Source: Tomocerus qinae (taxonomy: Eukaryota; Arthropoda; Collembola; Entomobryomorpha; Tomoceridae). From it: a DNA stretch of 64,000 nucleotides. The DNA lies in assembly GCA_020055645.1 (NCBI GenBank), contig CM034549.1, forward strand, positions 25,751,930 through 25,815,929, written 5' to 3'. How positions within the stretch are numbered: position 1 is the first letter of the stretch; the number at the start of each line of letters is the position of its first letter. Position numbers and translations under genes: made by a program. The notes under the pieces were generated by a model. It made no database searches, was not told the DNA's origin, and was given only the letters and a program-made list of their open reading frames with translations. Below, in pieces: positions 9,423-58,735 of this stretch.

Positions 9423-9718
9423 TTTGATACTAATTGAAACATACACTTGAGAAAGATAAAGTAATCTTAAACTGCCAAAAGAAATAATAAGAATAGAAAT
9501 CTGGTAGCCTTTAGGTATGAATCTGAAATAGTTCCTCCAAGTCCCAGTCCCACTCCACACCTCAAGTCAAGGTCAAGAATAGGCAAGATGCTTGTAAACA
9601 AATTTGCAATTTCTGGCCTTAGCAACCATATTGTACAACTATATGGGCAACAAAATAAAGCTAAAGGGCTGTCTCTTCGTACTTTATAAAGACGGTTCAG
9701 CCAGTTGGGCATTTTGTG
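9423..9718. other. Region upstream of the ABCA start (promoter/5'UTR side)
   Basis: Lies between the ABCA start codon and the foldback element and should hold the 5' UTR and promoter of that minus-strand gene. No TATA box or initiator can be assigned with confidence. The open frame running upstream from the start to 9560 is probably untranslated. Confidence 0.35.
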
Positions 9719-28060: not shown

Positions 28061-30970
28061 ATGGAAAATGAGATTTTTGAATCCTCTGCTCTCAAGAGAA
28101 GATACTGTAGGGAAACTGGATCTAACAAAAACTCACGAAGAAGTTTCAAAATAAGGAGGAATTTTTTATTTATCGTATGGACAATACTTTTCGCCTATTA
28201 TAGTGTAAATGCTGAAGATACGGGTGCTTCCGGTGGAGCTGCACAAGTTAACTTAAGTAACTTTAACCAACATCAGCATCAGGAGCCTGAGGAATTAGGT
28301 GATTATAGTATAGTTACTATTCAACAGTATCTACAAGAGCAATCTAGCAAATAATAAAAATCCTAGTTTAGATTTGTATGGACTAATTTTCACAACTTTT
28401 TTACAGATGTGGATGAAAACATTAATTCTCCAGCTGACACAGCATATAACAGTAAATATGCAAGATGGGAAGTTCCAGGTGTAAATTGTACTCCTCCTGG
28501 AATCGATGACTTTCCTCCTGACCTTTTTACCCAACAACAAAGACAAAATGGATGGGTTATTTTCCACTTTTTGGTGTCTCTGTACATTTTCTACGCACTT
28601 GCTCTTGCCTGTGATGATTATTTTGTTCCTTCCATCGAGAGAATTTGTGAAGGTATGTATTTCGTGGAAGTAAGTATAATTTTTATATTCTGTTTCATTA
28701 GTTTAATATACCTATTTTTGTATATAGAATTAAAAATCCCTTCAGATGTAGCTGGAGCTACTTTAATGGTAATTGACACTCACAATTTTGAATTAATTTT
28801 AATCGTTCATTGTGGTACATTAGAATTAATTGGTTTTATTTTTTAACCATAGGCAATTGGAACTTCTGCAGTAAGTATAAAAAACATGTTACGTCACATG
28901 AATATAATATTTTATGTAAATGTAATTCTTACATGTTCTAAAAATTTCAGCCTGAGCTTTTCACAAATATAATTGGAACATTTATTACGCATGGAGATAT
29001 AGGAATCGGAACCATTTTAGGTTAGTTCATTTTGGTATTCCTAATTACCACACTAGTGATTAGTTACTGATGCGTGAAACATTTCTGCATGTATGATATG
29101 TACTAGGTTTTGTTTTTGACAATCCAAAATATTTTGTTTTCTGAGAACAGTACAGCAAACGTCATGCGTATAAATGTTTTCGCTGTAATATCCATTGAGA
29201 TTTAACTGTATATAGGCAGTAATTTCAATACCAAACAAACTTGGTTCAATGTAGTATGTTCAAGAAACTAAATTCGTATTCCAAAACGAACTCACAAACG
29301 AATTTGTAGTTTAAATAGTTAATGCATGGAATTTTTATGATTTCAGGCTCAGCAGTATTTAATATTTTAGCTGTAGCAGCTGTCTGTGGCATTGGTGCTG
29401 GAATGGTAGTTATCCTATTTTGTCCTTGGACAAATATTTAAACTTTTATTTACATTTGCAGATTAGGTTGTTTGCAAATGCTTATTTTGCATGCAAAAAT
29501 GCTGGAGTAAATTGAAAACATGAGGATTATTTTCAGGTAGTTCCACTGGAATGGTGGTCGGTGACAAGAGATTGCATTTGTTATTCAATAACTGTTGTCT
29601 TACTCCTATTTGTTCTGAGGGATGAAAAGATTTATTGGTATGAGGCACTTACCCTTGTCCTAGTCTACAGTTTGTATATCCTTGGTATGACACGATTTCA
29701 ATCTGATATTTATTTTCTTTGTCCCATGCATGGCTTACAATTGCAATTGCATTTTTATTTGCATAGTGATGTACAAAAATTCATTCCTGAAGAAGGGTGC
29801 CGAAAAACTCGTGATGAAAGCAGAACGAAGACTTCGAAAAGATGACAAGGTTGAAACAACTTACACTGCAAAGCCAGTAGACACTAGCTTGGGTGAAACT
29901 CCAATGAACGGTTATCGCAATGGAAATGGTTCAAATGGATTAGCACTTCAAGGTCCTGATTGTGTGGAAACTCGAGACGAAATGCTTATTGAACAAGCTG
30001 TAAGGCAAACACAGGATGCTGCAGAAGACGGAAAAGGTAGCCGTTTTTTTATTTTCCTACCAGGTAATTTGCAAATTGATTTCTTCAAATAACACTTTTG
30101 AAATTAGATGATGGTGGATTGTGTCATTTACCATGGGATGAAGGATGGAAAGCGTGGGTGGAGTTCGTTGTAAGTTGGCCCATTAAATTGATGTTCACAA
30201 TCACAATTCCCGACTGCAGAAAGGTTCGTTGGAGAAAATGGCACGGTGTCACATTCACAATGTGTATTGTTTGGATCGGAGGTATGTTATCACTTAATAA
30301 ACAATTTTAACTGGAAAATCAAATTTTAACTATTTTTTTCTTGTTTTTTTCAGTGTTGGCTTACATTGTGAACTTTCAAATGACTGTAATAGGTAAATCT
30401 TACGAAAATTCTCTATCTTCAATGCTTTTCTAGTTTCAAGTTAGTAATAATTGTTTTTCTCAGGGCACACTTTAAAAATTCCCGATTCCGTCATGGGACT
30501 GACAATAATCGCTGCGGGTACATCTGTTCCTGAAGTAGTTTCGTCCGTAATTGTAGCAAGACAAGGTAAAATTGAAATGAAACAAAGAAATGTTAACAAT
30601 ATCTAATTTTGTTTTCTAATTTTCTATAGGGTTGGGAACAATGGCTGTTAGTAATTCAATCGGATCAAATACATTCGATATTCTCATGTGTCTTGGAATT
30701 CCGTGGTTGATTCGGGCTTCTTTGATTGCTAATGAGTCTGTTAATTACGTACAGATAAATTCTACAGGACTGGAATATTCTACCATAATGTTGATATCTT
30801 CACTGGTAGTGTTATACATAATTCTTGCATTTAACAAATTTAAATTAGATCGAAAAGTTGGATTTCTTGCTCTGATCCTCTACGCTGTATTCTTAATAAT
30901 GGCATCTCTCTTTGAGTTAAACGTTTTCTTTACTGTAAACCTCCCCACTTGTCAGTATCATATGGATTAA
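28061..30970 (+). CDS. NCKX-type Na+/Ca2+-K+ exchanger, paralogue A (SLC24, zydeco-like)
   Basis: Twelve exons: 28061-28298, 28407-28652, 28728-28768, 28853-28870, 28951-29020, 29347-29405, 29537-29684, 29767-30036, 30108-30281, 30354-30392, 30464-30565 and 30630-30970. They total 1746 nt, or 581 aa. The family swaps Na+ for Ca2+ plus K+ across the plasma membrane. Exon 1 encodes a signal-like helix ([20 protein letters not shown]). Alpha-1 is [19 protein letters not shown], with Glu183. Alpha-2 is [17 protein letters not shown] (Glu458) and [16 protein letters not shown] (Asp485), the positions of human NCKX2 Asp548 and Asp575. A hydrophilic loop (about 275-370) separates the halves. The SVPE..SS form of alpha-2 matches the insect zydeco group from memory. 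Exon 4 is only 18 nt (AIGTSA). AATAAA at 31408-31413 is a possible polyadenylation signal. Confidence 0.95.
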
Positions 30971-34286: not shown

Positions 34287-35196
34287 ATGGTCATGTGTGA
34301 CAGACTCATTAATTCTGCGAGTTTGCAATACCTACAGAAATGTGTAGGCGTTCCTACAACGCAGTTTTCTTTGGGATACGTAAACAAATTAGGAAAAATG
34401 AAAGTTAAACCAATTTTTCAGCAGCCGATTTCAGAACAATATCGTTTGCAACAAAGGCTTATGAGAAGCAATGCAAAATTATCTAGTGCCTGCAGAATAG
34501 CGACAGTTTTGTCATTTTTTACCCTTGTGAGTTTTCCAATCTGGATCAAATTCAAATTTTTATGTTACCAATACTATATAAATATAATAAAGCGTAGTAA
34601 ATTATAAATAACTGTTTTATAATGTACAGACTGCTGCTGTTGAAATGAATATTCATGATGGCGATGCACGTCCAGAGTTGATAGTAGCTTTCGTCATTTG
34701 TGCATCTCTTCTCATCTCTACAACGGTATTTGTACGACTTGCTTTCTTGTGGATAATTCCTCGTTTTGAGACAGCAGCTTTGATGTCGCAGTACTCATTA
34801 GAAGAATTGGACAGAGTTCCCCATGAAAATCTCTTACTGTTCATGGACATTGTTTGGATACTAGCCACCACTGTCGGTTATTTCCTTTTTGTACTAGAAT
34901 TTATTCTTTTATCGTGGATTAAATTTCAACATTTTACAGTGGGTGCACCATACAGTGCAACTCTAATTATGACACCTGTTCTTATTGGAATTACCATACT
35001 TGCTCTAACTTTCTATAAGAAATTACTAACAAGAACCAAAGTCATTCGGGAGGCTAACAAAAGACGAAGATCATCGTTGGCACTGGGAAGTATACATAGC
35101 AGCTCCCACAAAGACACTTTTGTTTGTGATTGTGATCTTCAGGTGAAGCAGCTACAAAATATTTATGACGTACAAATAGGAGCATCTTCAGTGTGA
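34287..35196 (+). CDS. Orai-type calcium channel, paralogue 2
   Basis: Two exons, 34287-34526 and 34630-35196, phase 0, 268 aa. The intron falls at exactly the same codon boundary of TM1 as in the neighbouring paralogue, supporting tandem duplication. TM1 region: NAKLSSACRIATVLSFFTL, then TAAVEMNIHDGDARP. Relative to human Orai1, Arg70 matches Arg91 and Glu85 matches the filter Glu106, both kept. Gly98 is Phe77 and Val102 is Thr81. Trp156 and Glu170 in TM3 (DIVWILATTVGYFLFVLEF) match Trp176 and Glu190, and the TM4 proline is kept (LIMTPVLIGITIL). It is thus closer to canonical Orai than its neighbour. The basic C-terminal tail (KKLLTRTKVIREANKRRR) is unlike the Orai1 coiled coil. The N-terminal 50 residues are unrecognised, and the start could instead be Met38. 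AATAAA at 35380-35385 is a good polyadenylation candidate. Confidence 0.9.
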
Positions 35197-37714
35197 AATG
35201 GTGCGAATGCTTTAAACCAATTCGAATATGTGTATGTTACCCTATAGCCTATAGTAAACCATTAAAAAATTACCATATGATAGTATTTAACAAAACGACT
35301 GAAAACATTTGTCATAATTAATTCCAAAGTCCTAATTTTATTGTTGCATTATTTATTTATATTGTACAAATGTAAACACAATAAATTAAGGTCAAACGAT
35401 GCAATAAACCTGAAACATGTTTTTCCACCCGATTCAGGAGTAGGAGCAGTGTATTAAAAGATTAAAACCAACTGCAGAATATGCAGAATTTACTTCAAAA
35501 ATTTTCTTTTGGTCTGGCCATTGACAAGTTTGTTAGGCTGTAAAATTGTTAGACCTACAATTTAGGATTACCTACACTAGTTTACTAGTATATTCTAGAT
35601 AAAAGTATTTCTAAATGTTTATTTTTCGACAATAATAATAAAAAATATTCCATCAATAATATTTGATAATACTTTTATACTTTAGCAAGCACAAACACAA
35701 TTGTATGTTTGAAGTGTATTCAACATTACAATTGAAGTGATAATCTGCTTATTGCCTGATTGTAATGATGAATATCAATTTGGCACATTATTTCATTCTA
35801 CGAACATCGTATAAGTAGTATTATGTGTGCTTGGTTTATGTTATGCTACACGGAAATTAGCATTGCTTAAAAACGCTAGTGTAGTAAATAACAAACATCG
35901 AACTTGAACTCGAATGAACTTATTTTCATTATATGGTAAACCTTGATGCTTTTTCTGGGCTGCATTCTATACTAATACACAAAGAAAATTAGCCTTTCAC
36001 TAATTGAAACAACGCACAACTGCATATATTGCAGAGGTTCAGTCACATTCACATCAGAAAAAGGACTAATATCATATCACAGCGTATCGTGATTGCAAAC
36101 AAAGTAGGTTGGCATTACATCTTTCATTATTTTTGTTATGATGTTGGCATAAGCAAATCAACGACCGTGTTTGGAACAAAATGAGTATAGCTAAGTATAT
36201 TATGTTTGTTTGTAGTTTGCACAATAAGCTTGTCAACCTGTCATCGTGACAATTGTGACATACAAGCCTGCAGAAGTATATACAGTCTTGCTTTGATTGC
36301 TTGTACATAAGTTACACTTTAGATATGGATTTAATAGGATCAAAGAGATGTACACTTCCACTGGTTAGTATTAATTCCACCAGTCCCATACTAAGCCAGT
36401 TACCAGAACATCACTTGCAGGCATACCACACATAAAAATAGGTTTAAATATAGACTGACTCTACTACATGAATGTAACTGGTTAATTTCTTAACTATTTA
36501 TTTAACGATTTTATTACACAAATAGCTTAAACTTAGATTGATTGGGCATTTCATTTCCGCTGATAACGACTCTGTAGGTATTTCCGTTGTTTCCAATCTA
36601 AATATATCTGCCCATAGGAATATTGAATTTGAAATTCATGGCACAGGTAAATTAATGGAAAGTCATTGCATCCAAATCTATAACATGGCCTTCTAAATGC
36701 GTCTCTGATATGATATATATATATAGCAGAGTAAAATAATATCAGACAAATATTCACTTTGGCTGCATTTGCGATTTGAAATCATTGTCTGATTACATAA
36801 GCAGTACAATAATGACGACCAAATAGAGGCATAATTCTAAATGCTGCTTTTTGGACAAGGGCATGTTGGTATTTCATATATTATGCTACATTTTTGCTGA
36901 ATTATGTTTTTTTTCAATATTTATTCCTTTTGTACACAACCAACCTTTCACTTGGCATTAGCAAGATTATATGATCTATTATTCATCAGCCAAGTGGGAT
37001 AATATGATGATTGAATGCATACTTTTATAATGCAAACGCAACTATTGCATAAGGTGGTACCTAACAAAACTACGTGAAACTAGAAACGTTCACAACGATC
37101 TTCGCATATTTTATGCATACCTAGCTTGAACTTTACATATGCACACATTTTGCAATTAGTATAGTGCCACGTAGAGCATTGGTATAATAATGCAAATATA
37201 AATATTTAGCAGCTTAACATATTGCTGCTATCACTGTATAATTAATTGCTAAGTAAGTATAATAAAATAATTTACATCTATTACTGCTTACTTGGAAATG
37301 TTATCTCCATTGAATTTTGCTACGAATGATCTGCAATTTCGCCGTATTAAGCATTAACAGGATCAGATAAACTAATACCAAAAGTAAAAGGAAGATTTCC
37401 GCATAATGTCACTTCGATTTTTGGTCTAGGGCACAGAACAGTGAACATTTCAATCATAATGCATCCAATTTCCTTGCAACACGGGGGTGCTAGTATGGAA
37501 TGCTAGTACGTATTGAATCAAAGCTATTACATAACAGAGCTTTAACCCTAGTAAACTCATCCGAAATCTAAAATATCAAAATTTTTAATTAGTGCCAGTT
37601 ACAACCTATGGAAATAATAATATGATATAGTATAATAGTAAGCAGTAACAGCAAGAAAACCTAATTCAAGCAAGACGCACTTGACTTTCTCTTTGTGCGT
37701 TGTCCAGCAGAAAA
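35197..37714. other. Intergenic region between second Orai-like gene and exchanger B
   Basis: Contains the 3' UTR of the channel gene and the promoter side of exchanger B. There is a TA-repeat tract near 36711-36723. A pyrimidine-rich stretch ending CAG just before the B start codon could be a 3' splice site, so an upstream B exon is possible, but I found none. No other gene is supported. Confidence 0.4.
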
Positions 37715-40329
37715 ATGTTTGACCAATTTTTCACACGTTCCATCACAATAGTTAGCGAAGACGAAAATTGCACAGAATCCAGTCTAAGTGAATTTCCCCC
37801 AGATCTTTTCACCCAAGAACAAAGACAATCAGGATTTGTTGCACTTCACTTCATTGCAGCTTTCTACACATTCTATTTTCTAGCCGTTGTCTGTGATGAG
37901 TATTTCGTCCCTTCGGTTGAACGAATTGCAAAAGGTAAGTTACATTCTCACATTCATGGTCGTTTCTCTTGCCATTTACTGGAATCGAGTTTTCTACAAA
38001 ATTGCCCCATCTAAAGTTATTTTTATCACAATACACATGCATCTATTTGTGAATGACACATTCGAGAAAACCTAATTTATTTATGATCCACATTTAGAAT
38101 TCCAAATTCCCAGTGAAATAGCAGGATGCACTGTTCTTGGAATTGCAAATAGTTCACCAGAACTATTTACCAATATCATCGGGACGTTTGTAACAAAAGG
38201 AGATCTTGGATTGGGAACGTAAGACTCAAATCATTTTCTGAAACGATGATCTACCAATTTTACGGAATCATCTAAAATGCATAAAACTGCTAAATTATAG
38301 GGTTTTAGGGGCCAGTGTGTTCAATATATTTGCTGTCGCAGCCTGCATTGGTCTTGGTACATCTAAGGTTCGTTAAATTTTTAAACATAAAGCTAAATAA
38401 TTCCATACGTGCTAAATGTAGATTGTGAATATTGATTTCGGCTTCATTTTAGGCTGTAAGTATTCAATGGTGGCCAATTTCGAGAGACTGTTTTTTCTAT
38501 GTGGTAGCTATACTGTGTCTATTTCAAATGCTCATTGATCATGAAGTAATGTGGTGGGACGGGATGACCTTGGTGTTACTCTACTGCATCTATATCTTGA
38601 GTAATCAGAATTAGTTTGAGAAATTATTTCTAATTATTGTGATAAAGATGGTAGCCAGAGGTAGAGAGGGATAGTCGGGAGAAGCATGAATCAGGTGAAG
38701 ATGCCACGGAATAATAGACGGACAATCTGCAGTACTTCTTAACTGTCTCTCTTTATTTCTGCCATCTTGGTGCAGACTTACTTCGCAGACCGAGACCAAA
38801 CGACTGATCAACTGATCGAGTAGAAAGCCAATCCTCTACTGATCGACCTGATCGAGTAGACTGCCAATCCTCTACTCCTCCCTACTACTGACTTTACAAT
38901 CTCTTTTCTGCTTTCTGTTTCGCTACCGCTCAACAGTTACAATCAGCCAGTCTCCCCCGTGCGCATGTCGCACCTTATATTATTATAGTACAATAGTATC
39001 CCCTTATAGATAGTACATTAACACTACAAATACTACATTATACATACTATGCTAAATAATTAACTTTTTTGTTTTTCTTAGTAATTTACTTCAACACTCG
39101 GCTTCGTTCATTTTTTAAGCGTGTGATTTTCAAATCTGAGAGACGCTATACATTCAACAAAGCAAATCGAGACAAAGGAGTTACTCGGTCGAATGATAGC
39201 ACAAACACTTTTAGTCTTAGTATAGATGACACTACAACCATTTCTTCTGTAAATGAAGACGATCTTGAGCAAATACCTGACATAATAGATCAAGAAGACG
39301 AAGATCGTTAGTATCTCTTTTTAAATATAAATTGGTTTCAGTTTCAGCATGATTTAAAACTAATTAGTTTTGAAATTATTATCTCTCAGAGACTCTAGGT
39401 CTATTTAAACTTCCATATGGAGAGGGATGGACTGTTTGGGCACATTGGGCAGTTGGCTGGCCAATTCGTGTCATTCTTAGGTTTACTGTTCCTGACTGCA
39501 AAAAAGCTAGATGGAAACGTTGGTATCCGGTGACATTTGTCATGTGTATTGCATGGAACACTGCACTTTGCTATTTTGTGTCATTTATGGTCACTTGCAT
39601 TGGTGAGTTTCTTCAAAGGGATGTTTTCACTTACTCATGAGATGTTTTTGTCGTTTGTCGTATCTAATTGTTCCGGTGTTTTTCTCTCAACTTGCAGGCT
39701 ACACATTTAACCTACCCGACAGTGTCTTAGGCTTAACTGTGATAGCTGCTGGCACAAGGTACCCATTACACTTTCTGTCTTATCCTACTGATAACAGTTT
39801 TTTTACCATTTTTATTCTTAAACCTTTCTCTAATTTATTTTCCAGTGTCCCACAGGCAGTCAGCTCCATAATAGTAGCACGAAAAGGTATTTTTACTCTA
39901 TATCTCTGACTCTGTACAAATAATCTTGATTTACAAGCACTATATAGCAATTAGCACACAATTATGGCTGTATAATAATTCTACACGTGTTTAATTTTTT
40001 TAGGACTCGGTACAATGGCAATGAACAATGCGATTGGCTCAAACATTTTTAATTGTCTTATTTGTCTCGGTTTTCCATGGCTAATCCAGATTCTCATACG
40101 TTTGAAAACGTCCAACCCTTACATACAGATCTATTCTGAAGCTTTGTATTATACGACTCTTATGCTAATAGGCTCCGTCGCTATCCTTTACATTATGATT
40201 GCACTAAATAAGTTTACCATTGATAGGAAAATTGGATGGATCTCTTTGGTTTCATATATACTTTTCTTAGTAATTGGATCTTTGTTTGAACTTAATGTTT
40301 TCTTCCATGTGAATCCTCCCCAGTGTTGA
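37715..40329 (+). CDS. NCKX-type cation exchanger, paralogue B (altered ion-binding residues)
   Basis: Nine exons: 37715-37934, 38098-38218, 38301-38367, 38453-38600, 39082-39306, 39390-39602, 39698-39758, 39845-39885 and 40004-40329. They total 1422 nt, or 473 aa. The fold matches its neighbours: [15 protein letters not shown], alpha-1 (EIAGCTVLGIANSSPELFT, Glu95), a central loop (about 200-270) and alpha-2. Alpha-2 reads [17 protein letters not shown] and NNAIGSNIFNCLICLG, so Gln355 and Asn382 stand where A and C have Glu and Asp. In human NCKX2 these positions (Asp548, Asp575) bind Ca2+ and set K+ dependence. Alpha-1 has also lost the GTS motif. Frames are open and all splice joints valid, so it is not a pseudogene by sequence. 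The model has no signal-like first exon. It could be a K+-independent exchanger, a different cation carrier or a regulatory subunit. AATAAA at 40663-40668. Confidence 0.9.
38812..38876. repeat. Short tandem duplication inside exchanger B intron
   Basis: Two 29-bp copies (38812-38840 and 38848-38876) of a unit starting CTGATCGAGTAGA and ending GCCAATCCTCTACT, period 36 bp, with two mismatches. They lie in a GC-richer, pyrimidine-rich block (about 38640-38960) within the 481-bp intron between exons 4 and 5. The block looks like an inserted element, possibly a solo LTR; its ends are not certain. Confidence 0.6.
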
Positions 40330-42323: not shown

Positions 42324-45300
42324 ATGATTACAGCTAAGGAATTGGAAAACGGCGAACAAAGACGGCTAGAGCGTCGGCGTTTTCTCAAGCGTAAAATAAG
42401 AACGAAGAGAAATATTCTCATTTTCACTTTCTCGGTATTTTTTGCCTACTTGAGTTTATCCGCCGAAGAAGTTGATTCTGCATCAGTTGCTTTCGATTCC
42501 CCCCATAACATGATGCCTCCGTTTTTTGGCTATGGAGATGAAACTGGATCATATAATGCAGGTATTTTACCCATACATAATATTACGAGTATAGTTTTTA
42601 TTTAGGAAGAATTTTTCTAAAACTCCGAAACGATACTTACTACCCATACAAATCAACAACTCAAGCTCAATGCATTCGTTACTCTCAAATCCCAAGAAAT
42701 GATTTGGAATTCTATAGAGTTCACGAAAGAAAGAAAATAATTTATTTTACCATCAGACAAAAATTAAAATTAAAAAATGATTCTCTGCTAGTAAAATAGT
42801 TTTTCAAACAGTATTAAATCTCATCAATGATGATTTCTACTTAGTTTTATTGCTGTAAGGTGCAAAGTTCAAACAGTATTACAATCGTACCTAGCTGTCT
42901 AGTCTTTAAAAAACTTAAAAATTCATTCTAGTATTTAGCCTGAGAACTGCAGGCCACGGGGAATACTTTGGATGCATTACACAATGCTTGTTATAATGAT
43001 AAATATTTTATGTAACGCAGTGTAGAACATGGTTGTATAATTTAGTGCAGAAATTTCTTAATGTTAATAAGTATACGGAAGTATAGGAGATATATTGAAG
43101 TAAGTTGATGTTGACAGGTGGAAGGTTGTTAAGAGCGTCTGCTGTAGATTCTTCCGGTGTTTCTCAAAGTGCCTCTTCAAATAATAATGGGAATAATGCG
43201 GACAAAGTTCGTAGAGACACTAATGGACGGGATAAAAATGAGCTCGAAGCTGTTCTTCGAGTTCCAGGAATAAATTGCACTCCGCCAGGAATTGACGACT
43301 TCCCTTCAGATCTTTTCACTCCTGAGCAAAGACGACAAGGGGCAGTTGTAATACATTTTATTGTTTCCATATACGTTTTCTATGCCTTAGCTCTAGCCTG
43401 TGATGACTACTTCGTCCCGTCTATCGAGTGCATATGCGAAGGTTACTAATTTTATTTACTACTTCCACTTTACTTCCGTTTTAAAAAAACCCGGAACATG
43501 ATTTATCATTTAGTGGTACCCCAATGCTTTAGGACAATGCCCAGACTGATTCGTTTGTACCTCCCGTGTCCTATTCCTAACGGTCGCTTCTGGTCAGCTT
43601 GAAAATGCCATAATTTTGTAAATAGTGGCCAAAAATGTTCTAAATATTTCATATTATTATGCCCATGGTATTTTATATAGAGATATGGACAAAACTAAAA
43701 GTTCTGGCTCGTAGCTACAGAGTATCTATCTTTTAAATAAGCCATCATGTGTATAAAAATCTAGTACTTTTTTTACCATTTTCCCCTTTCTTTTACCAAT
43801 AAACCTATTTGCAAAATGATTTTACACCTCTTTCCACTGAAATACATTTTAATTCTAGGAAAACTGAAAAAAAGCTTGAGAATTCCATTTTTAAATTCCT
43901 GCAATATTTTTATATTTTTGCATTTTTTGCATTTTTGCACTGCATGCAAATTCTTGAGATTTTAACTAAACGATTCATTACAGGAAACGTACCCTTACAA
44001 TATTTATGCGTAAACCAATTTAAAATGCATTACAATTTCCGTATTCATTTTTTAAATATTATTTCTATTCCAGAACTCCATTTAAGCTCCGATGTAGCCG
44101 GAGCTTCATTCATGGCTATTGGGACTTCAGCACCAGAGTATGGCTATGAAATATTAAATTACCTCATTTCTCATTTTATTCTTGAAACAGGATTTTCCTG
44201 TTTAAATTAAAGTGTTTCTAAAATGAAACAAAGAAATATCATTTGCCTTATTGAGGTGTAGTAACATATTAGCTTCTAAATTCGTAATGATTTTGATATC
44301 CGCAGGTTGTTCACAAATATAATAGGTACCTTTGTTACAAAAACAGACTTGGGAGTGGGAGCAATTGTCGGTACGTTTTTTGTTATTTTTTATTTATTTA
44401 TATGTATTATTTGTTGTTATATACTTTGACTGGTCTGTGGTTTTAGGATCCGCTGTGTTCAATATTTTGGCAGTTGGAGCTTGTTGTGGCATAGCAGCTC
44501 ACTCGGTAAGACTAAAAAAACGATAACAGATTTCGTCTCGATGAAACATTTCCGAATGTTTACTAAGTGTGTTATTTAATCTAAACCACTAAACATTTGG
44601 GAATTTTCCATGTAGGCCTTGCCCCTGGATTGGTATCCACTGACACGTGATTGTATTTTCTACTCTGTATCAGTCGTGCTTCTCATCTTTGTGCTGAATA
44701 ACCGACAGGTGTTTTGGTACGAAGGACTGGTGCTTGTCTTGGCGTATCTTGTGTACTTAGGAGGTAATTCAACTTATACCACTTGTAAAATGAGATTTGG
44801 GTGCAGTTGTATTGACTTTGGGAAATGGCTATTGATATTGAGTGGAATCTGCAGTTTTATGAAGGTTAAGTGAAATCGGTTAGACGTGTGAATGTGGGCA
44901 GTGCAGAGTTTGGTATTATGGATTGCTACAGCTCAGTTGTTAAGCTCGTACTAATTGTTGCAGTCAGAGAGTGATGTGACATGGAGTGATGTGACTATCA
45001 GAGCTAGCAATTTGGGAAAGTGGACAGAGTGAGCTATTTGTGGGTTGGTTCGTTCAGTGATGTAATGAGTGGAAAGTGAGTTCCTTCTTCTGGTTTATTA
45101 CCATGTTGTTAACAGGCATGTAATTTGCTGCTTTAATATGGCTTTTGGTTCCACGCCTTCCTTTCTCCGTCTCAACCGCACTGATGATTGTAAATGGTGA
45201 AAATCCCCTTCGAGTACTATACGTGTTGTACCCGAGTGGATTGCATAGATGCTTTTCATTTCATTAGTGCGACGGAGACAATGTCGACAATTAATCTTCT

Positions 45301-48300
45301 CTGTCAGCTTTTCCATCTCCTGACATCATACTGAATACGTGTACCATAATGTGCTTTTTACCATTTTCCTGTATTGATTTTAAACACTCGATGCTATTCC
45401 TAAAGCGTTCTTCAACATAGTTGTATAATATTACTAGGAAATTGTGTACCATCAGGCATAATACGTATTTACTTTTGTAGTCGCTTATACACATTGTTAA
45501 AATGTTGTTAGTTGATGCAGATATCATTATTACAGTATATAATTAGCATTTGTATACTAATTCTTGTAAAGCTTATGATGACTATATAAATGTCTTCCAC
45601 TAATGGCAACGCACTCTCGTTTCCCTCTGTTTTTCTTTCGGAGACGTTGTTTTAATGAGCAAATGAGAAGAAAGCAACTGTAGACATAGAAATTAAGTAG
45701 CAATGATGAATAGGTATGAACGATGTATAATATAATTGTAGTGCTTGATGAAGAAAGATTTCTTCAATTTTTATAAATCTTTTAAGCTTAAGTAGTTCAA
45801 ACTAGTTTAATTGGTGTTGCGAAAATCAACGAAACTATTTCTTTTTTACAGTCATGTATAAAAACGTAGCATTCAAAAGAGGAGCGGAGAACTTGGTACA
45901 TAAAATTGGGAAGAAGTTTGGATGGAGTAGTTGGATGTTGACATCGTCAAGAAGAGGATCTCTTGTCTCTAGCCGTCGTGTATCTATCAAGGAGAAAGTA
46001 ACCTCGGAGCAAACACCACTCTTGGGTAAATAAAATGCAATTCCTTTAAACAAATGAAAGGTTGTGTGAGGATGTCTGAAAATCTAGAGCAATTCTCTAG
46101 CGCTGTATAAATTCTGTTCCAGATTTACATAATAAGAAATTTTTCTCTTCAATAAAGGTTTTAATGATAAAAAGATGTGGAGTTGGATATGAACATAAGC
46201 ACGCTCAGTTCAGGTGTTAGATAATGTTTGCCATCACGGCTTTCGTCTATTTATCCTTGTCAAGACTGCACTGTGACACTCGTAAAGTGCATGCAATCAC
46301 CAACGGCCAAAAATAAAGTGAAAGTCATGGAGAAAGGCAATTTTCTATGGAGAAATATGACTTTCTTAAAGCCCTCGTAAGCTATCTTTTACAAAGCGTT
46401 TCCTGTAGACCTAGAAATACAAACATAGGTAACTGCGTACTATTTTTATGTTTGTGCATTGCACAATCCAAAGACACAAAGCAAGATAACTTTTATTTAA
46501 TCTGACTTATGAATCCGTCGTTATTTGCCATCTCAAACTTGAAAATTACCTTTTAACTTACTTTTTATTGCACTCCGCCATATTTCTATGCATTTAAATG
46601 TTAGTTGTCCAATTTTTCTACAGAACAATTCTGTTTTACTGCTTTTCTGCAATTGGAAACATCTTTTTTTACTTTCAAAATTAGACGAATTTCGCTATTA
46701 ACACAAGAAGCTATTTACTAAATAGATTTTCACTAGTTTGTGTTGATTACATGACAAATTCTATCATTGAACAAAGAATTATCAAAAAACTCAATAGAGA
46801 CGTAAAATTGAAATGAATTTCCGTTCCCCTTTTGTTTTTGCAACTCATCTGCAGCAATAGACGACTCTCCTCTTTATTGAACAGGCTTACTTCTTTGTCG
46901 ATCAGTTCTTCTCATTTTTCATGGATGACAAATGAGGGAGTTTGGCCAACGTTTTCGCCTTTTTTATCATACCCTTTTGTAGACTGTGTAACTCACCTAA
47001 GTCTTTTTTTGCTTTCGTTTGGAGAATGATCTATCCTTTATACTTTCTTTTGTCGTTTCCTTATGCAGTTCGTTTCACCCACCACTAGTTGGTTAGTAGA
47101 AGCTGTAAATCCCCTATTTTAGTGATAGTACAACCTACAACGTAGATGCAATGTACTTAGAGATAAATATGAGTGAAAGAATATGAGTACTTAACTCAAC
47201 TATAGGTATATTAATATGATATGAAATATTAAAGTATGTCTCCTATAAGGTTTATTTGTGTAGTAATGTATTATCCTGTAATAGCTTTAATGGCTATCTT
47301 CTTAGAATGTAGTAATTTTTCAAGAGTTTCTTGATCTTGCACAGTGGTGAATTGAAGTGAAGGGAAGGGGAGATAAAGAGAAAGCACATTATGTAAGCCT
47401 AGCATAAGAGGCACACATGCTACACAATTCAGAAGGCTAAAGCAGCTGTTTTTTATCTTTATTTCTTGACAGACGGCAAAGGTCGGAGTGGGAGGACAAG
47501 TCTAAGTCAGAGTTACGACGCTACTGTCCCAGTTACACTGGGGCATGATGATGACATAAATGACAATGAAGATATGACTACCGAAGCCATGGACGAGATC
47601 CTCATTGCAAAAGCATTGCATAAATCGGAAAGTCATTTGGAAGAAGAAAAAGGTACTTTTTCTCTTTTCTTACCTCACTAACCAACAATAAGTTAAAATC
47701 GAATCAGATTTTATCATATAACCTTACTGCACTAATATTAATACAATTACAGTGCAGTAGTAACTATTATATGAAGTGAAAGTTTAACTAATTATACTGA
47801 AAACTTTCGGAGAAAGTAGAAACTCAAATGAAACCATTTATTCATAGCTTATGGTTATTAATTCTGTATATTTAATTGAATCAGAAGACTATGCTTCGGC
47901 ATCTTATCTCATTTTATTAATAGTTCATTGCCATCGGCATGAGAAAAGTGCTCTTAGAGGAGAAAAGGAAACAGTTGTTTCTAATATACCTTTCCTTGTG
48001 GTCTGGGATACCTAAGTATAATATAGATTGTATATAGCAAGGAGTATTAAACTGTTTCTTAAATATAAAGTGTTGACTGTGTTATTATTACGTGGTTGGG
48101 AAATCTAAGGAACACTTTGCTCCGAGCCATAAAGAACATCCTACCGAAGTAGACAGCCTCCTACTGAGAGGTGAATGTTGAAATTTTAATGAGCAAACTG
48201 TCGACGGATGCGAGTTGAGCACAAAAGTAAAGGTAGCCAGAAACAGACTTGTCTGTCTGCAGATGCATAAGAAAAGTTCTTATACCTACACAGACTTGAA

Positions 48301-51300
48301 TAAACTACTAAGGTATTTTAGAAAAGCTATAGGTAGTTATTTTGAGTTGTTACTGAACTGCAGATGCGAGTTTCACTTACATAAACCTACTATATGCTAC
48401 ATAGACAAATCCAAGACTCGCCCAAGCTGAAATCTAAGGGATCAAGTACTTTACTTTTACTCATATTATTATTGGCTCTGTTTCACGTGCAATAATACAG
48501 ATAACAATATTTCGCCAAGATTTCTCCAAGTTACACTCTCACAAAAAAGAAATCAAAGGTTAACAATCTAACTACAATTGTCAGCTACCTACTACACTAG
48601 TAATTCTAACTTTATGGAAGGGCAACTACCTTTTATCAGAGATAACACGGTCCTCCAGGAAATTTAATACTCTAATCAAATTTGTCATTATGGTTGATAT
48701 AATTCTACGTCTCACCTCGAGGAGTTACAATGAAACGGAAGCAAAGTTTATTGTACTTTTCATACAGCTCGAATTTCAAGGTACAATCTAGGGAATTCTA
48801 ACGAAGACTGCCCTGAAGATAAGGAAAAGTCTTCTAGGTTTAGTATCACTAAGATAAAATATGCGTACAGTTTTACTTTTACCGACGTAAGTAGCAGGAA
48901 GTACTATCGTCGACGTTTATTATAAGTGTGTACTACAAAAACGTACAAAATGGTAGTGCTTGCTACTTAAGTGTCTTTATTGTAGTGTTTCATTTGTACA
49001 AGTATCGTGTCCTCATTTCGCCAGAGTGATTTTGTTTACCTTGAACTTTGAGATGTACATTTTATGAAGCCTTTGGCTTTTTTCACTTTGAATTGGAAAA
49101 TATTAATGTTTTACTATGTACAGCTCGGAGATTCTTTTGTTATTAAGTTGTTGGCTGATACTGTACAAAGTACAAATACAGAATGATATTTCTTAAGTAC
49201 ACGTGTAAAACTGAATATAGAAGTTTTCGTCACTATACACGTCTTTTCTCGAAACATCAATTAGAATTCCTTTACGACCGACGACTTCCATGTTCAAGGA
49301 TTAGTGTAGCAAAGTTCTGTTGTTTAGCAAGATGGTAAAGCCTTATTTAATGGCCATAAAATAATTAATATCACTAGAACGCATTGAGGGCATGGGATTT
49401 GAGACTTGCATCATCTACTTGACTATACCTGTAATTTAATGGTGTAATAAACTTGGATAAATATGCCTAAAGATTGTGTGGTTGATTGTCATTATCAATA
49501 GGTACTTGGAGTAGACTCGTAGTTTCGGTAGTAAAATTCTTATTATCCAATAATGACTCCAGAATACTGGCATTGAATCCATGTGAGGTAAGTAAGCATC
49601 TTTCAAAATGAGAATCTCTGCTTAAGATACGAATACGAACGGTTGGTGTAAGTGACACAATAGTTAGCACTATCAGGAAACTTTTTATTGTAGCCTTATT
49701 TTGCCCGAAAAAGCAATTTAGTATGGTGATCATGAAAGCGTGTACTTGAAGTTATGTGATCTGGCATTGGCTTCTAGTCTCCGAGGTCTCATACTTTATC
49801 GTGACTGGATTTTCCTATTTGAATTTATTACTCTTCAGACGCACCATTTGTGCTGAAAGTCAAAGAAGCTTGCATTTGAAGAAATTATACATCCAGGTTT
49901 TTTAAACCAAAAAATAAATGCAATAACAGATGGGGTGTCTAGTACGTTACATCATTCACAAGTCCATAAATTAGATCAAGTAAAGCATACAGTATCTAAT
50001 TAACAATGTTAAGGAATTTTAATTCTACGAAAGTTCTTTTTACATGTGCGTAAAGTTGCAAATAAATTACGAATAAAAAATGAATTTGGAATATGATGTA
50101 TTTCGTAGGTGTGGCATAAACATAAAATTCAACCTTAAATTATTACTTCGCACCAGATGTGCACACTATACATCAGTTTGTATAAGGCTTGATTATTTTT
50201 ACCAAAGATTCGAATCGAAGGTGAATTGAACACTACCTTCAGTGCCAGAGAAATTAGTCCTTATCACTTTATTGCTTTGAATAACGAAAGCAAACATGAC
50301 ATATTAGTTCTTATGCATGTTATTTCGATAATTTATAATTTTATTTTATCAAACTGAGGTACTAAATCTTTCATTAACAATTAAATTGAAATCAATTTCC
50401 ATTTAACAAGGATACAATGAAGTGCTTCTTTTGTGAAACGGAAATTCCATTTCTTTCTTGTATTTCAAAGCATTGTATCTCAAGCGTTGACGGTGACATT
50501 GAAGAAAAAAGATGAGCTTTTGCTTTTAGATCACATCTCGAGTAGGCTAAGGCTTCAAGTATTGTATGTTTTGTAAAAGCTTAAAAGCTACGCCAAACCT
50601 TGTTTACTCAGAACTGTTGTGGTAGAATATTTCAACGAGTTGAGGGGAGGGAACAAAAGCTAGTCTCTTTAAATTTGCTTCTTGTAAAGGTTAGTTGATA
50701 CAGAGTGGCTGTTGTGTCGCGAACAACATCGTGAACAAAGGACGACGGTGAGAGTATATAGTAAATAAAATAAAAAGGACTTTTGGTGTACTTTGTATTT
50801 TATTCCTTGTACTCGTTGTATTAAGTTGTTTGCTATGCACAAACAGAAATTGCTCTGTAGAAGAATTACAGCTTCATCTTGAGACGTTTTGTGGTGAAGT
50901 TTTCTATTGAACTCATTTTTTAACCCGCATGTTTGGTTTTTGTTGACTTAGCAAAGTTTTCTTTCGTTATTCTTTCCCGAATGCTTTGCCTTATTACTAC
51001 CTATCATACTTTATTTTTGTGAATATGTGTCCCAGGTCATTACATATTATGCAGGTCGATGCTGTCACCCTTTGTAAGTTAGTACAAGGTGCAATTTCTA
51101 AAATGTCCCTATATATTTAGCATGGAGGTCGGATCAAGATGGGAGATTGCACCCTAGCCTTTTTAAGGCGTACAATGATTGCTGAACTTGTGTATAATTT
51201 TGGGATATAGTAAATCGAAGAAGTGTTATGGTTTCATGGTCGTCTCCAATAAATATCACAACAGAAGAAAGTGACAGATTTAGTCAGACGGAGTGACTGA

Positions 51301-54300
51301 GTAAGTCTAGATTAACCTCAAAGTGTCACTGCTGTCACGCAAGATGCATTCAACTCTGTTGTCTGTCTCCCGCAGAATAGTTGTAAGTTATTGTCAGTAC
51401 AATGCCCTATGCCAATACTGCTTTGTCGTGCCTCCTTGACAAGATTTACCTATTTAAAACAGTCAGTGAAAGTTTCTCTCATTATTCTCTTCTTCTACAA
51501 ACCTTGATTCTGACGGAAACTTTCAGTGGCCTTTGAGGCGTATAAGAAAATGTCATTCAGTTCACTCCACTGACTTGGCTTAAGTCAACGTCTATTCAAA
51601 AGATCTTCTTTGTACTAATGAGCAGGTTAGGCTTGCAAATTAAAGGCGAAATTAGCCTTACTCAAGATATTACAATATTTCTTGCCCCTTAATAACAATC
51701 CTGCTACAATAATTACACAATGAATGTACTGTGTACACTCTGAAATCCGGGAATTCAAATAATGTACACTAAGCCAAAGTTACCTAGTTCCGAGTTGATC
51801 TTTGTTCTTTGTGTATAATTACTGTAACATTTGTTGTAAAGTTATAGTTACAACTACTAGACTTTATCAACGTTGATAGAATTCAAGGAATTACTGAGTA
51901 ATCATTTATTTTTGAAATTTCAGAAGAATGGGGATTATTTAAACTTCCCCGAGGACAAAGTTGCCTCGTTTGGTTCGAATGGATTGTTGGCTGGCCAGTT
52001 AGATTTGTTTTTACGTGCACAGTACCTGATTGTCGGGAGAAGAAGCTAAGAAAACTCTACCCGCTTACTTTCATCATGTGTATTACGTGGATTGCTTGTA
52101 AGGAAAACTTTTGTAAATGTTTCTAGCTATTTTGGATCAATTTAATTAAAATGGTATCACAATTTAGCCTGAATGCTCTCTTAATGTTTTTAAGTATGTC
52201 TATTTATTTTATAACTTTGGTTTCAGTGTTAACCTACGTCGTTTCGTGGATGATGACAACAATTGGTAAGCTTTACAAGAAATTATTGTGCAATTTTACT
52301 TAAGGGTAGATTGAAGATTAGATAGAATTAGTTAAATGAGTGTGCAAGTGACAAAAACCACGCTCTTCAGGTTTCCCTTCTGAGAATAAACAAATCCATG
52401 GTTTAGCAATTGTAATTCCAATTTGGATTTGTTTGGTTATAGCGAAATAATAGGGCTACCCACGCATGGATTTGAATAAAATCCATGCTCAGAGTTCTCT
52501 TCACGTTCACGCTTTCACTTAGCTGTGCGAAGTATTATTAAGTAGTAGCAAGGAAAGTATTTGCGTGTGGTGGTGTAAGATAGAACTTTGTAGAAAGCTA
52601 TAATTAAGAAACTTGTACAATTGGCTTGAAGGAATGTTCTCGCTGAGAAATGTGTCACAGTGCTTTACTTTCAGAAAGAACGGACATCGATAAAATTAAT
52701 TATGGTTTCATCTGAGGCCGTCTGTATGAAGTAAAATATTTTCTTTAACTTTCCCATAAGACTGCAATGCAAGACTATCTAGATTGTCCTCGTTATGTCC
52801 TTACTTTCACCTTTCACAATGTAAACAATTTTTGGATGAGTGGAGCTGAAAAAGATTTATTTCCCTGAGAAGTCAAGTCAAGCCAGGAGAAATTAATTCC
52901 CCTTGTATAGCTATCTGCCACGGAATATACAAATTCAAATGCTATAGGTAAAAGAGACTCTTGAGGACGGAAATTCTATGATCACTATCCTACTATATGC
53001 AATTGGTTCTATGTCTAATGAAAAAGTGTCTGTATGTGCCTGGCTTAAAGTGAAATCAATATTCACGGAAAATCAACTTTGAAAAAGGACGGGGGTGTAG
53101 TTGTAATGAATGGCTTAGGTAAATAATATAAATGGCACAATTACAAACCGGGAGTTCTATACATACTAAGTCAGAGAAAGTGCTAACGTAGTTGAAAATG
53201 CACATCATGAAAAACATTACACAAGTGAACTGGTAGTTAAGTATTCCGTTTAGTATTGACTTTACCAAGTTACGAGGTGCCATTTATTACGAGAAGGAAA
53301 CCCAATGTTATCATAAGCCAAAATGCTATCTCTAATGAAAGTCCAATTATAATTATTACTACTGAAGGAGAGCTGAATGCATTTGTTCATACAATTCAAG
53401 TGAACTAAACTTTTCCTTAATTATTCATTAAATTTTACATCAACAGTGTTTGTTATAATATCTCTTACAACGTTACAAGTACATTAATGCTCTACCAAAG
53501 TTTCATTGCAGGGGGTATAGAAGGGCAATATATAGGATTAGAGTAGCTTCCTTAATGTACCGACTACAATTACTCCGATTGTTAAGGAAATTCGATTTTA
53601 TGTAAGGACCGGAAGAATCATGGCGCTAGAAATTTCACCTGAGCAGAAGAAAGTGGAATTCCCCAGTTATCTGCTATATGGACTAGTTAGACTCGATGAT
53701 ATCTCTTATAGGAGCAATGAAGACGGAAGAAAGATCGAGTGATTGGCTGACATGACAGTTAAACTAATTGGTTTCTTAAGTCTTTCTCAACGTGAAAAAC
53801 AAATCCGTCTTGTCTACTATGGGATGTGCGCTATTTAGGATAGATTTTTCCAAGTATATTCCATATAGGTAACCATGTTTCTCCGAAAAACGAGAGTTTT
53901 CCTAAGAATTACACAATTCTATTGTATGTATGTAAGCTAAAAATACGCATGGCTTGATCAAACCCTATTATGATGAGTATTGTATTGCCCGTTATCATTA
54001 TTGCAGCTTATTGTTTTAGAAGAATCTTCAGGAATTATAAGTTTCCGACTGTTGTCGAGTTTTGACACGTGTCTGTAGTTCTGATTTCCTAAATGCACAT
54101 TAGAATCTAGAAATCACCTGATAAATATTTTTCTTCTGATCAAAATTCTTTTCAGGCGTTTCTACAGCTGAACTTTATTATAATTGCATCAGTGATGCTG
54201 CAGAGTATACCGAGTCTAGTCAGTAGATAAAAAAATGTGGTATAGATATGCATAGCTGTAGACACAACAGATTTTGCAAACAAAAGTTATTGTTTGAGAA

Positions 54301-57300
54301 AAGCTAGTTCTATTGAATACCTGTTCTTAAATTGAAAAGAAATATTTTTGGTAGCTGAAGCTTCTTCTCGTTTAATACGATGTTATAATATCGAAGTAAG
54401 GAAGAAATATGGCAATACAGTCAGCGTGGCAAGATATTTACGTAACTTTTCATCAATTTTCTCCTGTCACGCTCCTATTACAGCTTTTGTATTTTGTTTT
54501 TTTGCCATAAAGCCGGGAAAGTTTATCAGGAACACGAACAGGCTTCCATGACGCACCTGTACAATATTGGAAAGGCTAGCCCAAAGTTGGGAGATAATGT
54601 GGTATCTACCATCAATGCATGTAGATACTTATTTCGGAGGAGTACTAAGAGCATTGTACAACATTCTGAAGGAAAAAGAAGAAAAGATGAGATCGGGCCA
54701 TCTGATCGATAATTCTATTTTTCAGGGAGGAAACTCCCGTTAGCTTTGTTCATTGTGACTCTGACGTGACATATTTCCGTCCTGTCTACTCCATTACTAT
54801 GCAAATATTGTGAATGACAAACTAGTACGTGATATTAAGTTCAAGATGTAGTTGTAGTAAATAAGTGTGTATATGTAGGTGATGGAGAACAACCAAATGA
54901 GATGTGCAAATACATCTGCCTCCTCTCCCATAAAATAGAATTATCTAATACTATTTCTATTCTAAACCATGCACAGGAAATAACATTCGGGCAGCTATTC
55001 ACACGTGCGTTATCCTTGACATGTCCTTACAATTCTGTGATATATAACCAAAGATAAGTACCAACAGTTAAATAATCCATCACGTTTGTGTGTACTCCAT
55101 AAGTATCTATACATGACAGCGTGTCTTATTAATCTTTGTCTTCCCTTTACTCCTCACACTATTCTTTCTAGTAGTAACCACTACTCTTTGAGACCCACGT
55201 CCTTATCGGATGTCATCTTCTTCCACTAAAACTCAAAGTCCACAATATTAGAAAGTGGAAAATGATCACATACGCTTTTCATCTCTTCCGAAATATCAAT
55301 ATACGTCTTGAGACTCTTTCTTGCACTATCTTATTAGCACTATGCTAGTCAAAATTAATTTAAAATAATTTACTAGTAGATTTTACAGCCCTAAGTTCAA
55401 ACGTAAGCGTTTTCAGTTTTCCTAGAAAAATATCTTGATGTTTACCTTGTTTTCTTCTGATTTCATCCAATATTACATGCTGGCGTTTTGCATTCATATG
55501 GATTTATTTCAAAAATGAGGTCAAAATCAAAATTAAGCTTAATTCCTCCCACAAGTTCATGTCTGTAATAATTTCAGTATGCTTGCAGATGTTTCGCACA
55601 TGTCCCGTTAGTAATATTGTACTTTCAACTTTGGTACTATACAAAGCAAATTATGTGCATCAATAGCGCAGAATTCCAATTACTTGTATTGTATTAATAA
55701 CTTTACATGTAAACCAAGTAGCCGAAGCCCTTGTAGTTGTTAAATTGTTTTTCGGGTAAGTAGGCCAAGTACAAAGTACAGCTTCCTTTGTGGCGGCTTT
55801 ATTTCAGAAGATATATCAACAATATTTGTTATGCTGGAATTTTAGCCAACTTTGACTGTTCCACCTACTTATTCAAATAACATTTATATTCCAATGTAGT
55901 AAGTAGCAATAATGCATAGTTTACGGTCTACTTAGCAAGATGTAATACAAAAAGTACAGTACAGACTGTAGAAACTGATTATTAGAACTTTCTTTGCATG
56001 CCAGTTCAGTGTCAGAGGAAAAGAAATAAGAAAAAGATTTTTGAAATCACCTGAATCATTTCGTACCTATGAGAAAAGAGCTGAAAACAATCCAATCGTT
56101 GCTAATATATTTTTTACAGTAGAATGGATTATATTGGTTGAGACTTTGAGACTAACATTTTGCTTCATCTCCGTATTTCTTTTGCCTTTGCCCCTTGAGA
56201 TTTTTCTAGACATTTAGTTTTTCGTCAGTGAACCTAAGCACATTTTTGAATAAAACCAAGAATGGTTCAGAAAGAGCGATATTCGTTTTCTCGAGGTGAA
56301 AATGGCTAGTGTTGGTGTTGATTTGACTAGATTTGCTACTTTCCTTATGCAAGTTCAGTGAAGGATTTATAAAATGAAAACAAACGATAGACAGTTCCAT
56401 TCTGCGAATTCAAAGTTTAAACCTATGTTGATTTTTTTGGGCAAGGTATTTTCTCACAGGTAGTATTATGTTGAACAATGGAAAGTCTGTGTGTAGGTGT
56501 GTTATAACTTTTTATTCTTGAAAGTTAGTGTCAATATTATCGCAACACTTTATCTTGAATTTTTGGTTTTCATCAACCTTGCTATGATAATAAAAATATT
56601 AGAGCTGTATTCTTACTCTTGGTGGATCTCAATTCTTTGACATGATGGGATTGTGTAGCTATGTTAATTTCAAGGACCGGAGTGTGAGTGTATTTCTAAA
56701 CGGAGGAGCGAGGAAAGCCAACAATATTATCACGGAATACTATCGACAGATACGCAAGCAAATCCTGTGAATATTTTTACCCTGGAGAATTTCCAGATGA
56801 AAACGGAAATATTTGCATTAAATTATGCAACTGCGTCTTGTATGTCTTGTCAGAGCATTTGGATCTAGCTCAACGATAGTTTCTAGGCGTAAATTTAAAA
56901 TCCTAAAATATAAGGAGAAAATTCTGATTTAATGTTTCGTGTAAGCGTGACGGGAAAAGCATTTCTTTAATATGCATTTGAATTTGTAGGCCACACGCTC
57001 AGTATTCCTGATTCTGTGATGGGACTCACCTTTATTGCCGCCGGAACTTCAGTGCCTGAAGCCGTTTCTTCAATCATAGTTGCTCGTCAAGGTAAGCTAT
57101 AAAAGTTTATTAATTCCTTTTCTTTCTCCAGATCAAGTTCATAAAAACTATAACGTAATAAAATAAGATCCTTGATATGGGATTCTGAATAATGGAGATC
57201 ATTATCTTGTTAGTATAGCCTATATGGGGAAGGGATAAGGAAAATTGTTTTGACACATAAATATTTACCATTTCAACTTGGACCATTCCCAACCTTATGC

Positions 57301-58735
57301 GAGCATTAAGTGTTTTCTTTGTTCTATGCTAAACCTCTTATTTTTTACCAAAGGGAATAAACAGATAGCGCAACTCCCACTATTTCCTTCTATCACCAAT
57401 ATGTTTTTTTCATTAGTGTGTATATCACAATTTATTATTATTGTCATTTTCACTGTCCTTGGACACTCTGATGTGAAAGTCCTTGTAGTAAGTGCAGCAA
57501 GAAGGTCTAGAGTAAATCTAATAACGTTTTCTCCATCTCTGTTGCATATTTACACAAGTTATATCCTATATAATGGTAGATTTAGCTTAGGCATCGCTTT
57601 TTCTTGAGCGGAAACCCAGAATTGGTAAATGTAAATGTCATAGACCAATCGAGTTTGCAAATAATTGTCTCCAAATGTTTTCTACCAATAGTAATAGATT
57701 CCCGTAATAAACAACGTATCAATATAATAAGAATTGCCTTACTTGATTTGATATTTGGTCGATATTTCATCTAATTTTACTCAATTTGAAATGTTTATAT
57801 GCTGTCTCGATACAGAATTAGAAATAAATTACTAAATGCTTGAGCCGCAACTGGTAAAACATATTTTATGAGAAACTAGAGCCCCCAAAATCTCAGAGAA
57901 TGAAGAATTTTTGTATTTGAATTGTAATCAGCCTGAATTTTTGACAGACCTACTACATATATACCTTGTTGATTCTTGCAAACACAATATTATTACACAA
58001 ATATTTGTGATAGCGCCAGGCTTTCTACAAACCAAATACCAAATGGGCTGTTTAAATCACCAGTACTGTAGTATTGCCGTTTTGCCAAAAATTGTTTTCC
58101 ACATCCAGATATCCCACCAACCTGCTCAAATGCAATCTAATTTTAGCAGGGAATCGTATTTTATTGACTTGATTTTCTGAATATGCTGACGTACGCAATA
58201 CCTGCCTTACATGATGAGTAAATAAGCACGAGAACTCGAGTATGTATAAATTGCTCTGAAGGAAATGTACACAATAATCTGTCTATAAGTAATCTATCTG
58301 TATAAATTCGGATTTGTTTCTGAATGAAAATAGAATGTTATTGGTGGTAAGTTACATCTATGAATTGCTACAAATCTTAATTAGCAAAAATTGTTTTTTT
58401 CAGGTTTGGGATCTATGAGCATAAGTAATTCAATTGGGTCGAACACGTTTGACATCTTGATCTGTTTGGGTTTACCCTGGCTAATTCGTGGCTCGATGTT
58501 GGCCAACGACGAAATTAATTATATTCAAATTAATTCCGGCGGTTTGGAATACTCAGCAATGATCCTGATGGTCTCTCTCGTGGCATTCTACCTACTGTTG
58601 GCGTGCAACAGATTCGTTTTAACTAACAGAATTGGATATACTTTCTTATCCATGTATGCTGCCTTCCTGATATTCGCATCGTTATTCGAGCTAAATGTAT
58701 TCTATCCTATTAATGCACCTACCTGTGAACTGTAA
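42324..58735 (+). CDS. NCKX-type Na+/Ca2+-K+ exchanger, paralogue C (SLC24, zydeco-like)
   Basis: Twelve exons: 42324-42561, 43118-43441, 44074-44137, 44306-44370, 44447-44505, 44616-44763, 45852-46025, 47473-47652, 51924-52097, 52227-52265, 56990-57091 and 58404-58735. They total 1899 nt, or 632 aa. It is the longest of the three exchangers, through a longer lumenal N-terminal part and loop. Exon 1 encodes a signal-like helix ([20 protein letters not shown]) and is 238 nt, exactly as in A. Alpha-1 is [18 protein letters not shown] (Glu209). Alpha-2 is [21 protein letters not shown] (Glu512) with [16 protein letters not shown] (Asp539), so canonical K+-dependent Ca2+ exchange is expected. Exon 7 ([12 protein letters not shown]) adds a basic Ser-rich loop segment that could be phosphorylated (inference). 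Exon 2's donor is GTTACT, weaker than the others. The gene is 16.4 kb against 2.9 kb for A because of introns of up to 4.7 kb. Confidence 0.94.
44764..45851. other. Intron 6 of exchanger C
   Basis: 1.1-kb intron, G/T-richer than its surroundings around 44880-45100. No exon with valid phase is seen. ORFs on the minus strand at 45098-45316 and 45291-45527 lack recognisable features. Confidence 0.6.
46026..47472. other. Intron 7 of exchanger C
   Basis: 1.4-kb intron with only short open frames. Nothing beyond the splice sites is recognisable. Confidence 0.6.
47653..51923. other. Intron 8 of exchanger C (4.3 kb)
   Basis: Large intron before the exon encoding the start of the second membrane half. 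It contains an imperfect inverted repeat near 47724-47764 (TACTGCACT / AGTGCAGTA). There is a 71-codon plus ORF at 48215-48430 and an 88-codon minus ORF at 49467-49733; neither has a domain or supporting splice context. Cell-type enhancers would fit here, but nothing in the sequence proves that. Confidence 0.55.
52266..56989. other. Intron 10 of exchanger C (4.7 kb)
   Basis: Largest intron of the window. A 10-bp-arm hairpin (GCATGGATTT / AAATCCATGC) lies near 52462-52486. Short ORFs such as 54348-54551 and 54494-54712 are not recognisable genes. No nested gene is supported. Confidence 0.55.
57092..58403. other. Intron 11 of exchanger C
   Basis: 1.3-kb intron splitting alpha-2 at the same place as in exchanger A. 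A 109-codon plus ORF at 57278-57607 has no recognisable features. Confidence 0.6.

Follow-up and report, generated by a model that had tools for sequence, protein, structure and literature searches.

Can an exchanger of the NCKX (SLC24) type be maintained once most of the acids in its ion-binding pocket have been replaced? Acids in the alpha repeats count as hallmarks of Ca2+/cation exchangers, and exchanger B of the collembolan Tomocerus qinae carries neutral residues in place of two of them. The gene lies at 37715..40329 on the plus strand of the window, the 64,000-nucleotide stretch analyzed here (G000:C4:25751930-25815929 of a 334 Mb assembly), and encodes an SLC24/NCKX-type protein of 473 aa in nine coding exons (37715-37934, 38098-38218, 38301-38367, 38453-38600, 39082-39306, 39390-39602, 39698-39758, 39846-39886, and 40004-40329). 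Exons 2-3 (38098..38367) encode the alpha-1 repeat, which ends in LGASVFN, and exons 7-9 (39698..40329) encode the alpha-2 repeat and the C-terminal helices. The whole protein matches the Pfam family Na_Ca_ex (PF01699) in two stretches with E=1.4e-57 and 194.4 bits, above the curated cut-off of 24.9 bits. As the earlier note on this DNA had stated, the frame is fully open over the nine exons. All eight introns have GT-AG borders, and no stop, frameshift, or broken splice site is found in the 473 codons and 8 introns. Three of the donor sites look weak (gttcgt, gttagt, gtaatc).

The models of the neighboring exchangers A and C have a hydrophobic N-terminal exon, while the adopted model of B is without one. 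An acceptor-like site right before the ATG of B makes a further upstream coding exon possible. Between 35250 and 37714, scanning turned up a single hydrophobic ATG frame (36863-36958), which lacks a clear charged start and was not taken into the model. An alternative exon that restores an acid was rejected as well: in the introns flanking exon 8 (39759-39845 and 39887-40003), searched by eye, no second VPE/VPD exon is apparent, and SNIFN is internal to the last exon.

Of the three pocket carboxylates, B retains a single one. Alignment to PDB structures places residue 95 of B on NCX_Mj residue 54, residue 355 on 213, and residue 382 on 240, ungapped between the latter two. The NCKX2 numbering rests on offsets from the available text of PMC12150658 and not on an NCKX2 sequence alignment: +93 from NCX_Mj reproduces the S185, E188, and S211 named there, and +193 reproduces S545, D548, S571, and D575. 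Glu95 (38160..38162, plus strand as are all codons given here; E54 of NCX_Mj, E188 of NCKX2) is the sole carboxylate left. Gln355 (CAG, 39853..39855; E213, D548) is the last residue of SVPQ, and Asn382 (AAT, 40051..40053; D240, D575) is the last residue of SNIFN, so that E, Q, and N stand where the NCKX set has E188, D548, and D575. The earlier note had pointed out both motifs at their spacing of 27 residues, the altered alpha-1 motif of B (IANSSPE), and the SVPE and SNTFD of A and C; all are present as described, those of A and C in both spliced models, and its equation of Gln355 and Asn382 with Asp548 and Asp575 of NCKX2 is borne out by the NCX_Mj alignment together with the offsets. Ala118 (38311..38313; S77, S211) is a further pocket change beyond those in that note, at a position where 6/6 other NCKX-type paralogues have Ser. 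Asn91 (38148..38150) occupies the position of NCX_Mj T50 and NCKX2 G184, which varies in the paralogues too (T, S, G). Read across the 12 coordinating positions, B carries G, N, S, E, A, N, A, T, S, Q, S, and N.

Exon-wise protein searches of the whole genome find seven NCKX-type genes (A, B, C, D, G, H, and EF). B is flanked by A (28061..30970, plus strand, 12 exons, 581 aa) and C (42324..58735, plus strand, 12 exons, 632 aa), both with intact acids and SAPE as their alpha-1 motif. D (C4:25.40 Mb), G (C2:1.96 Mb), H (C3:36.9 Mb), and EF (C4:25.94-26.02 Mb) are spliced-alignment models; EF, which we take to be the Nckx30C-like gene by its resemblance, was joined by hand from two partial matches ~60 kb apart. 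All three pocket acids are kept in 6/6 other NCKX-type paralogues, as E/E/D in A, C, D, and G and as E/D/D in H and EF, and B alone among the paralogues found has lost two of them. Non-acid ligands change elsewhere too, with Ser at T50 and Val at T209 in H, Gly at T50 in EF, and Gly at A47 in G, the last in common with B (Gly88). Over the core, B is 33-55% identical to the other six.

A search of the assembly with B returns at least 38 matches, those listed all lying in the seven NCKX-type genes and not in NCX genes, and a hidden second copy of B was rejected on these matches and on those with the core of A. The core of A returns at least 39 matches, in the seven genes and at two weak places outside them (C2:63.48 Mb and the NCX cluster at C1:107.7 Mb). 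NCX-type motifs of the genome keep their acids: a motif scan of eight loci, with a match in three (L029, L030, L034), gives four GSSAPE alpha-1 motifs and three GTS(V/L)PD alpha-2 motifs followed by SNSVN. The statement that acids are kept covers the six NCKX-type genes, these four alpha-1 motifs, and these three alpha-2 motifs; it does not extend to the PF01699 matches without gene models at C1:139.6 Mb, C2:63.47 Mb, C81, and C55. The NCX genes seem to be multiplied too, with three tandem alpha-1/alpha-2 motif pairs on the minus strand at C1:107.725-107.745 Mb. Seven NCKX-type genes are many, given that Drosophila has two and that SLC24 is among the stable families in arthropods, according to excerpts of PMC12889452 and PMC7487162, respectively.

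Two Orai-type (CRAC channel) ORFs lie side by side between A and B on the plus strand, at 33187-33804 and 34612-35196 (PF07856, E=7.6e-19 and 3.4e-20, respectively), which puts genes for Ca2+ entry and for Ca2+ exchange in one cluster. The first has Asp (FCLDIILLAW) where the second has Glu (FVLEFILLSW). Elsewhere in the window, an ABCA-type transporter (3032-9566, minus strand) shows ABC_tran in both large ORFs and an ABCA1-like R1 domain in the ORF 3032-4609, and the ORF 20763-21053 (minus strand) has a mannose-6-phosphate-receptor/ATG27-like match. Two ORFs first called gustatory-receptor-like and phosphoglycerate-dehydrogenase-like match no Pfam family, and these names were dropped. The assembly also holds a full-length COI frame (TGA as Trp) in a chromosome-sized contig (G000:C1:36670928-36672268) and partial COI copies at C1:139.1-139.8 Mb and in C81 and C11; these represent either mitochondrial insertions or mis-scaffolding. 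The COI sequence points to an arthropod.

In a protein tree of 374 columns, which contains no NCX outgroup, B groups with G as its sister (UFBoot 90). B is a multi-exon duplicate and no retrocopy: A and C have introns at the positions of five of its eight. Two further introns (near residues 114 and 352) are found in B only, and the remaining one, in the loop, is outside the comparison. As judged from its sequence, B is an SLC24 member by descent and not a normal NCKX by pocket chemistry. A, C, G, and H have a 102-nt alpha-2 exon, which an intron interrupts in B after 61 nt (39759-39845) and in D after 40 nt (G000:C4:25399644-25399717); the different places suggest separate intron gains beside the ion-binding motif. 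The core of the alpha-1 ion motif, AIGTSA, comes from an 18-nt microexon (28853-28870, plus strand) in the model of A.

As a whole, B is not in decay, and its frame has been under long constraint. Its terminal protein branch is 0.486, compared with 0.485 in its sister G. In a codon model of 378 codons and five paralogues, the omega of B equals that of the other branches, and the lnL drops by 10.0 when it is set to 1. This rejection of neutrality averages over the whole branch of B and leaves room for relaxation within the most recent ~0.01-0.03 neutral substitutions per site. Fourfold sites differ by 60-76% and second positions by 16-24% in five paralogue pairs, the fourfold sites being saturated. 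Because of the saturated synonymous divergence the omega values are not taken as measurements, and the one result used is that omega=1 is rejected on the B branch; some branches stand at the optimizer bound, and a three-omega run ended ~0.4 lnL units below the simpler runs and is not converged. The earlier note had proposed that selection maintains B with a new role. The first half of this proposal holds, as omega=1 is rejected and the branch equals that of G, and the new role finds partial support at most.

What the pocket of B can still do is best judged from mutants of its relatives, cited here from the accessible portions of each paper. In NCKX2, the activity of G184C, E188C, S211C, S545C, D548C, and S571C is <1%, and D575C is active enough for inhibition by MTSET (PMC12150658). 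Of these positions, B departs from NCKX2 at 184, 211, and 548; residue 184 varies among the paralogues as well. In NCX_Mj, E213A causes a 25-50-fold loss, S77A and D240A keep 10-25%, and T50A has little effect (PMC4753433). In YfkE, a Gln at either key Glu (E72Q or E255Q) abolishes Ca2+ transport (PMC10227063). In NCLX, transport is lowered by D153N and by the double exchange D153A-D471A; D471N, the closest NCLX mutant, was excluded from analysis for low expression (PMC12571890). The mutants compared carry Cys or Ala in place of the native residue, or Gln in the case of a CAX. They uphold the view of the earlier note that Asp548 and Asp575 are functionally key, and no natural NCKX with a neutral Asp548 position was found among the listed titles and abstract openings of the open-access literature. 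On this analysis, B is very likely incapable of the K+-dependent Na+/Ca2+ exchange of NCKX, in which 4Na+ are exchanged for 1Ca2+ and 1K+, and canonical Ca2+ exchange by B would be unlikely.

B shares with NCKX/SLC24 (human NCKX2, Drosophila Nckx30C, zydeco) the two alpha repeats and the GTSxP and GSNxF motifs, whereas it has Gln at Asp548, Asn at Asp575, and Ala at Ser211, with one pocket acid instead of three. With the K+-independent NCX/SLC8 it shares Asn at the D240 position (SNSVN in the NCX of this genome), but NCX keeps the alpha-2 acid (GTSVPD or GTSLPD) where B has Gln. Eukaryotic NCX has only two carboxylates, E54 and D213, in the available part of PMC8366772, and of the NCX-type pocket (carboxylates at E54 and E213, Asn at D240) B has the Asn382 and lacks the acid at 355. 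Human NCLX/SLC8B1 has the same residues as B at the T50, S77, and D240 positions in the alignment (Asn, Ala, and Asn); NCLX, in contrast, keeps Asp153 and Asp471, described in the accessible NCLX text as its Ca2+ clamp, where B has Glu95 and Gln355 (GNSIGD in NCLX, GTSVPQ in B).

These likenesses leave room for a tentative and somewhat improbable reading in which B transports with changed ions, either K+-independently or with monovalent ions only (Na+, Li+, K+, H+), through Glu95 and the neutral oxygens of Gln355 and Asn382. By the title of Kang 2005, substitution of Asp575 reportedly makes NCKX2 K+-independent, and the Asn shared with NCX and NCLX and the overall constraint agree with this reading. 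A single carboxylate would suit one monovalent charge; that B was converted to monovalent-only transport (e.g., Na+/H+ or Na+/K+) by its single-carboxylate pocket, amid expanded NCKX genes, seems distinctly unlikely. Acid loss at the E54 or E213 position stops or strongly lowers transport in the mutated exchangers, NCLX retains its two Asp, and, with the <1% activity of D548C, a K+-independent exchanger is not the simplest prediction for B, as far as the excerpted papers go. Changes in B are not enriched at ligand positions either (4/11 versus 26/133 other invariant positions, Fisher p=0.24); the 0/7 ligand changes in A, C, D, and G form an asymmetrical contrast, their invariant sites being defined with B included. 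The pocket of B evolves like any conserved part of the fold, as expected if the ligand constraint was lost and the fold constraint kept. A pocket tuned to a new specificity would explain the lack of enrichment less well.

It is unlikely that B is a recently released duplicate in decay that is still free of stops. Such decay would account for the changes at 13/74 of the sites invariant in the other six paralogues, but G, with all its acids kept, changes 11/72 such sites (H 10/71, EF 25/86, D 2/63, A 1/62, and C 1/62). The weak-looking donors and the missing hydrophobic N-terminal exon point the same way, as does the alpha-repeat branch (100 columns), which at 0.269 is ~1.5x the 0.181 of G in a descriptive comparison; over the rest of the protein (278 columns) the branches are 0.569 and 0.618, respectively. 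After 0.03 neutral substitutions per site, the frame and all splice sites of the eight introns would still be intact with a probability of 0.07 without indels and 0.004 with indels. For E213, D240, and S77 to be lost together over the same time, the probability is ~3e-4. These bounds take kappa from the codon model and assume an indel rate of 0.1 per substitution and the ancestral codons. These low values suggest that the pocket was probably altered while the rest of B was still selected. That B is an ordinary Ca2+ exchanger is highly improbable: Gln, standing in for the acid, would keep its length and an oxygen ligand in a conserved fold, but YfkE E255Q is dead and NCKX2 D548C is below 1% in the portions cited above, and B has also lost the Ser at 118 and the Asp at 382.

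The preferred reading, on which we stand about evenly between acceptance and doubt, is that B is a constrained, non-canonical, probably transport-dead paralogue that perhaps acts through partners. B would be an old, intact NCKX (SLC24)-type paralogue with a largely neutralized cation pocket, in which Glu95 alone is left and the Ser at 118 is lost. The alpha repeats keep their prolines and most of their glycines as part of a fold that is otherwise conserved, and retention as a non-canonical or pseudo-exchanger is therefore proposed. NCKX homodimers are described in the available text of PMC9820825, where dimer cross-inhibition is cited by title, and on these grounds a partner role would be the most economical guess: B may pair with transport-competent paralogues and set their amount, placement, or activity. 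Several findings count against the preferred reading, namely the unenriched ligand changes, the variation of other paralogues at non-acid ligands, the mild effect of T50A in NCX_Mj, the Asn that is normal at the D240 position in K+-independent NCX and in NCLX, and the activity of NCKX2 D575C in the excerpt cited.

A long-constrained paralogue without two of the acids, standing beside intact copies, separates the retention of the fold from ion exchange. The Asp548/Asp575 mutant literature can thereby be tested on a natural case, B being either a pseudo-exchanger or an exchanger with switched ion specificity.
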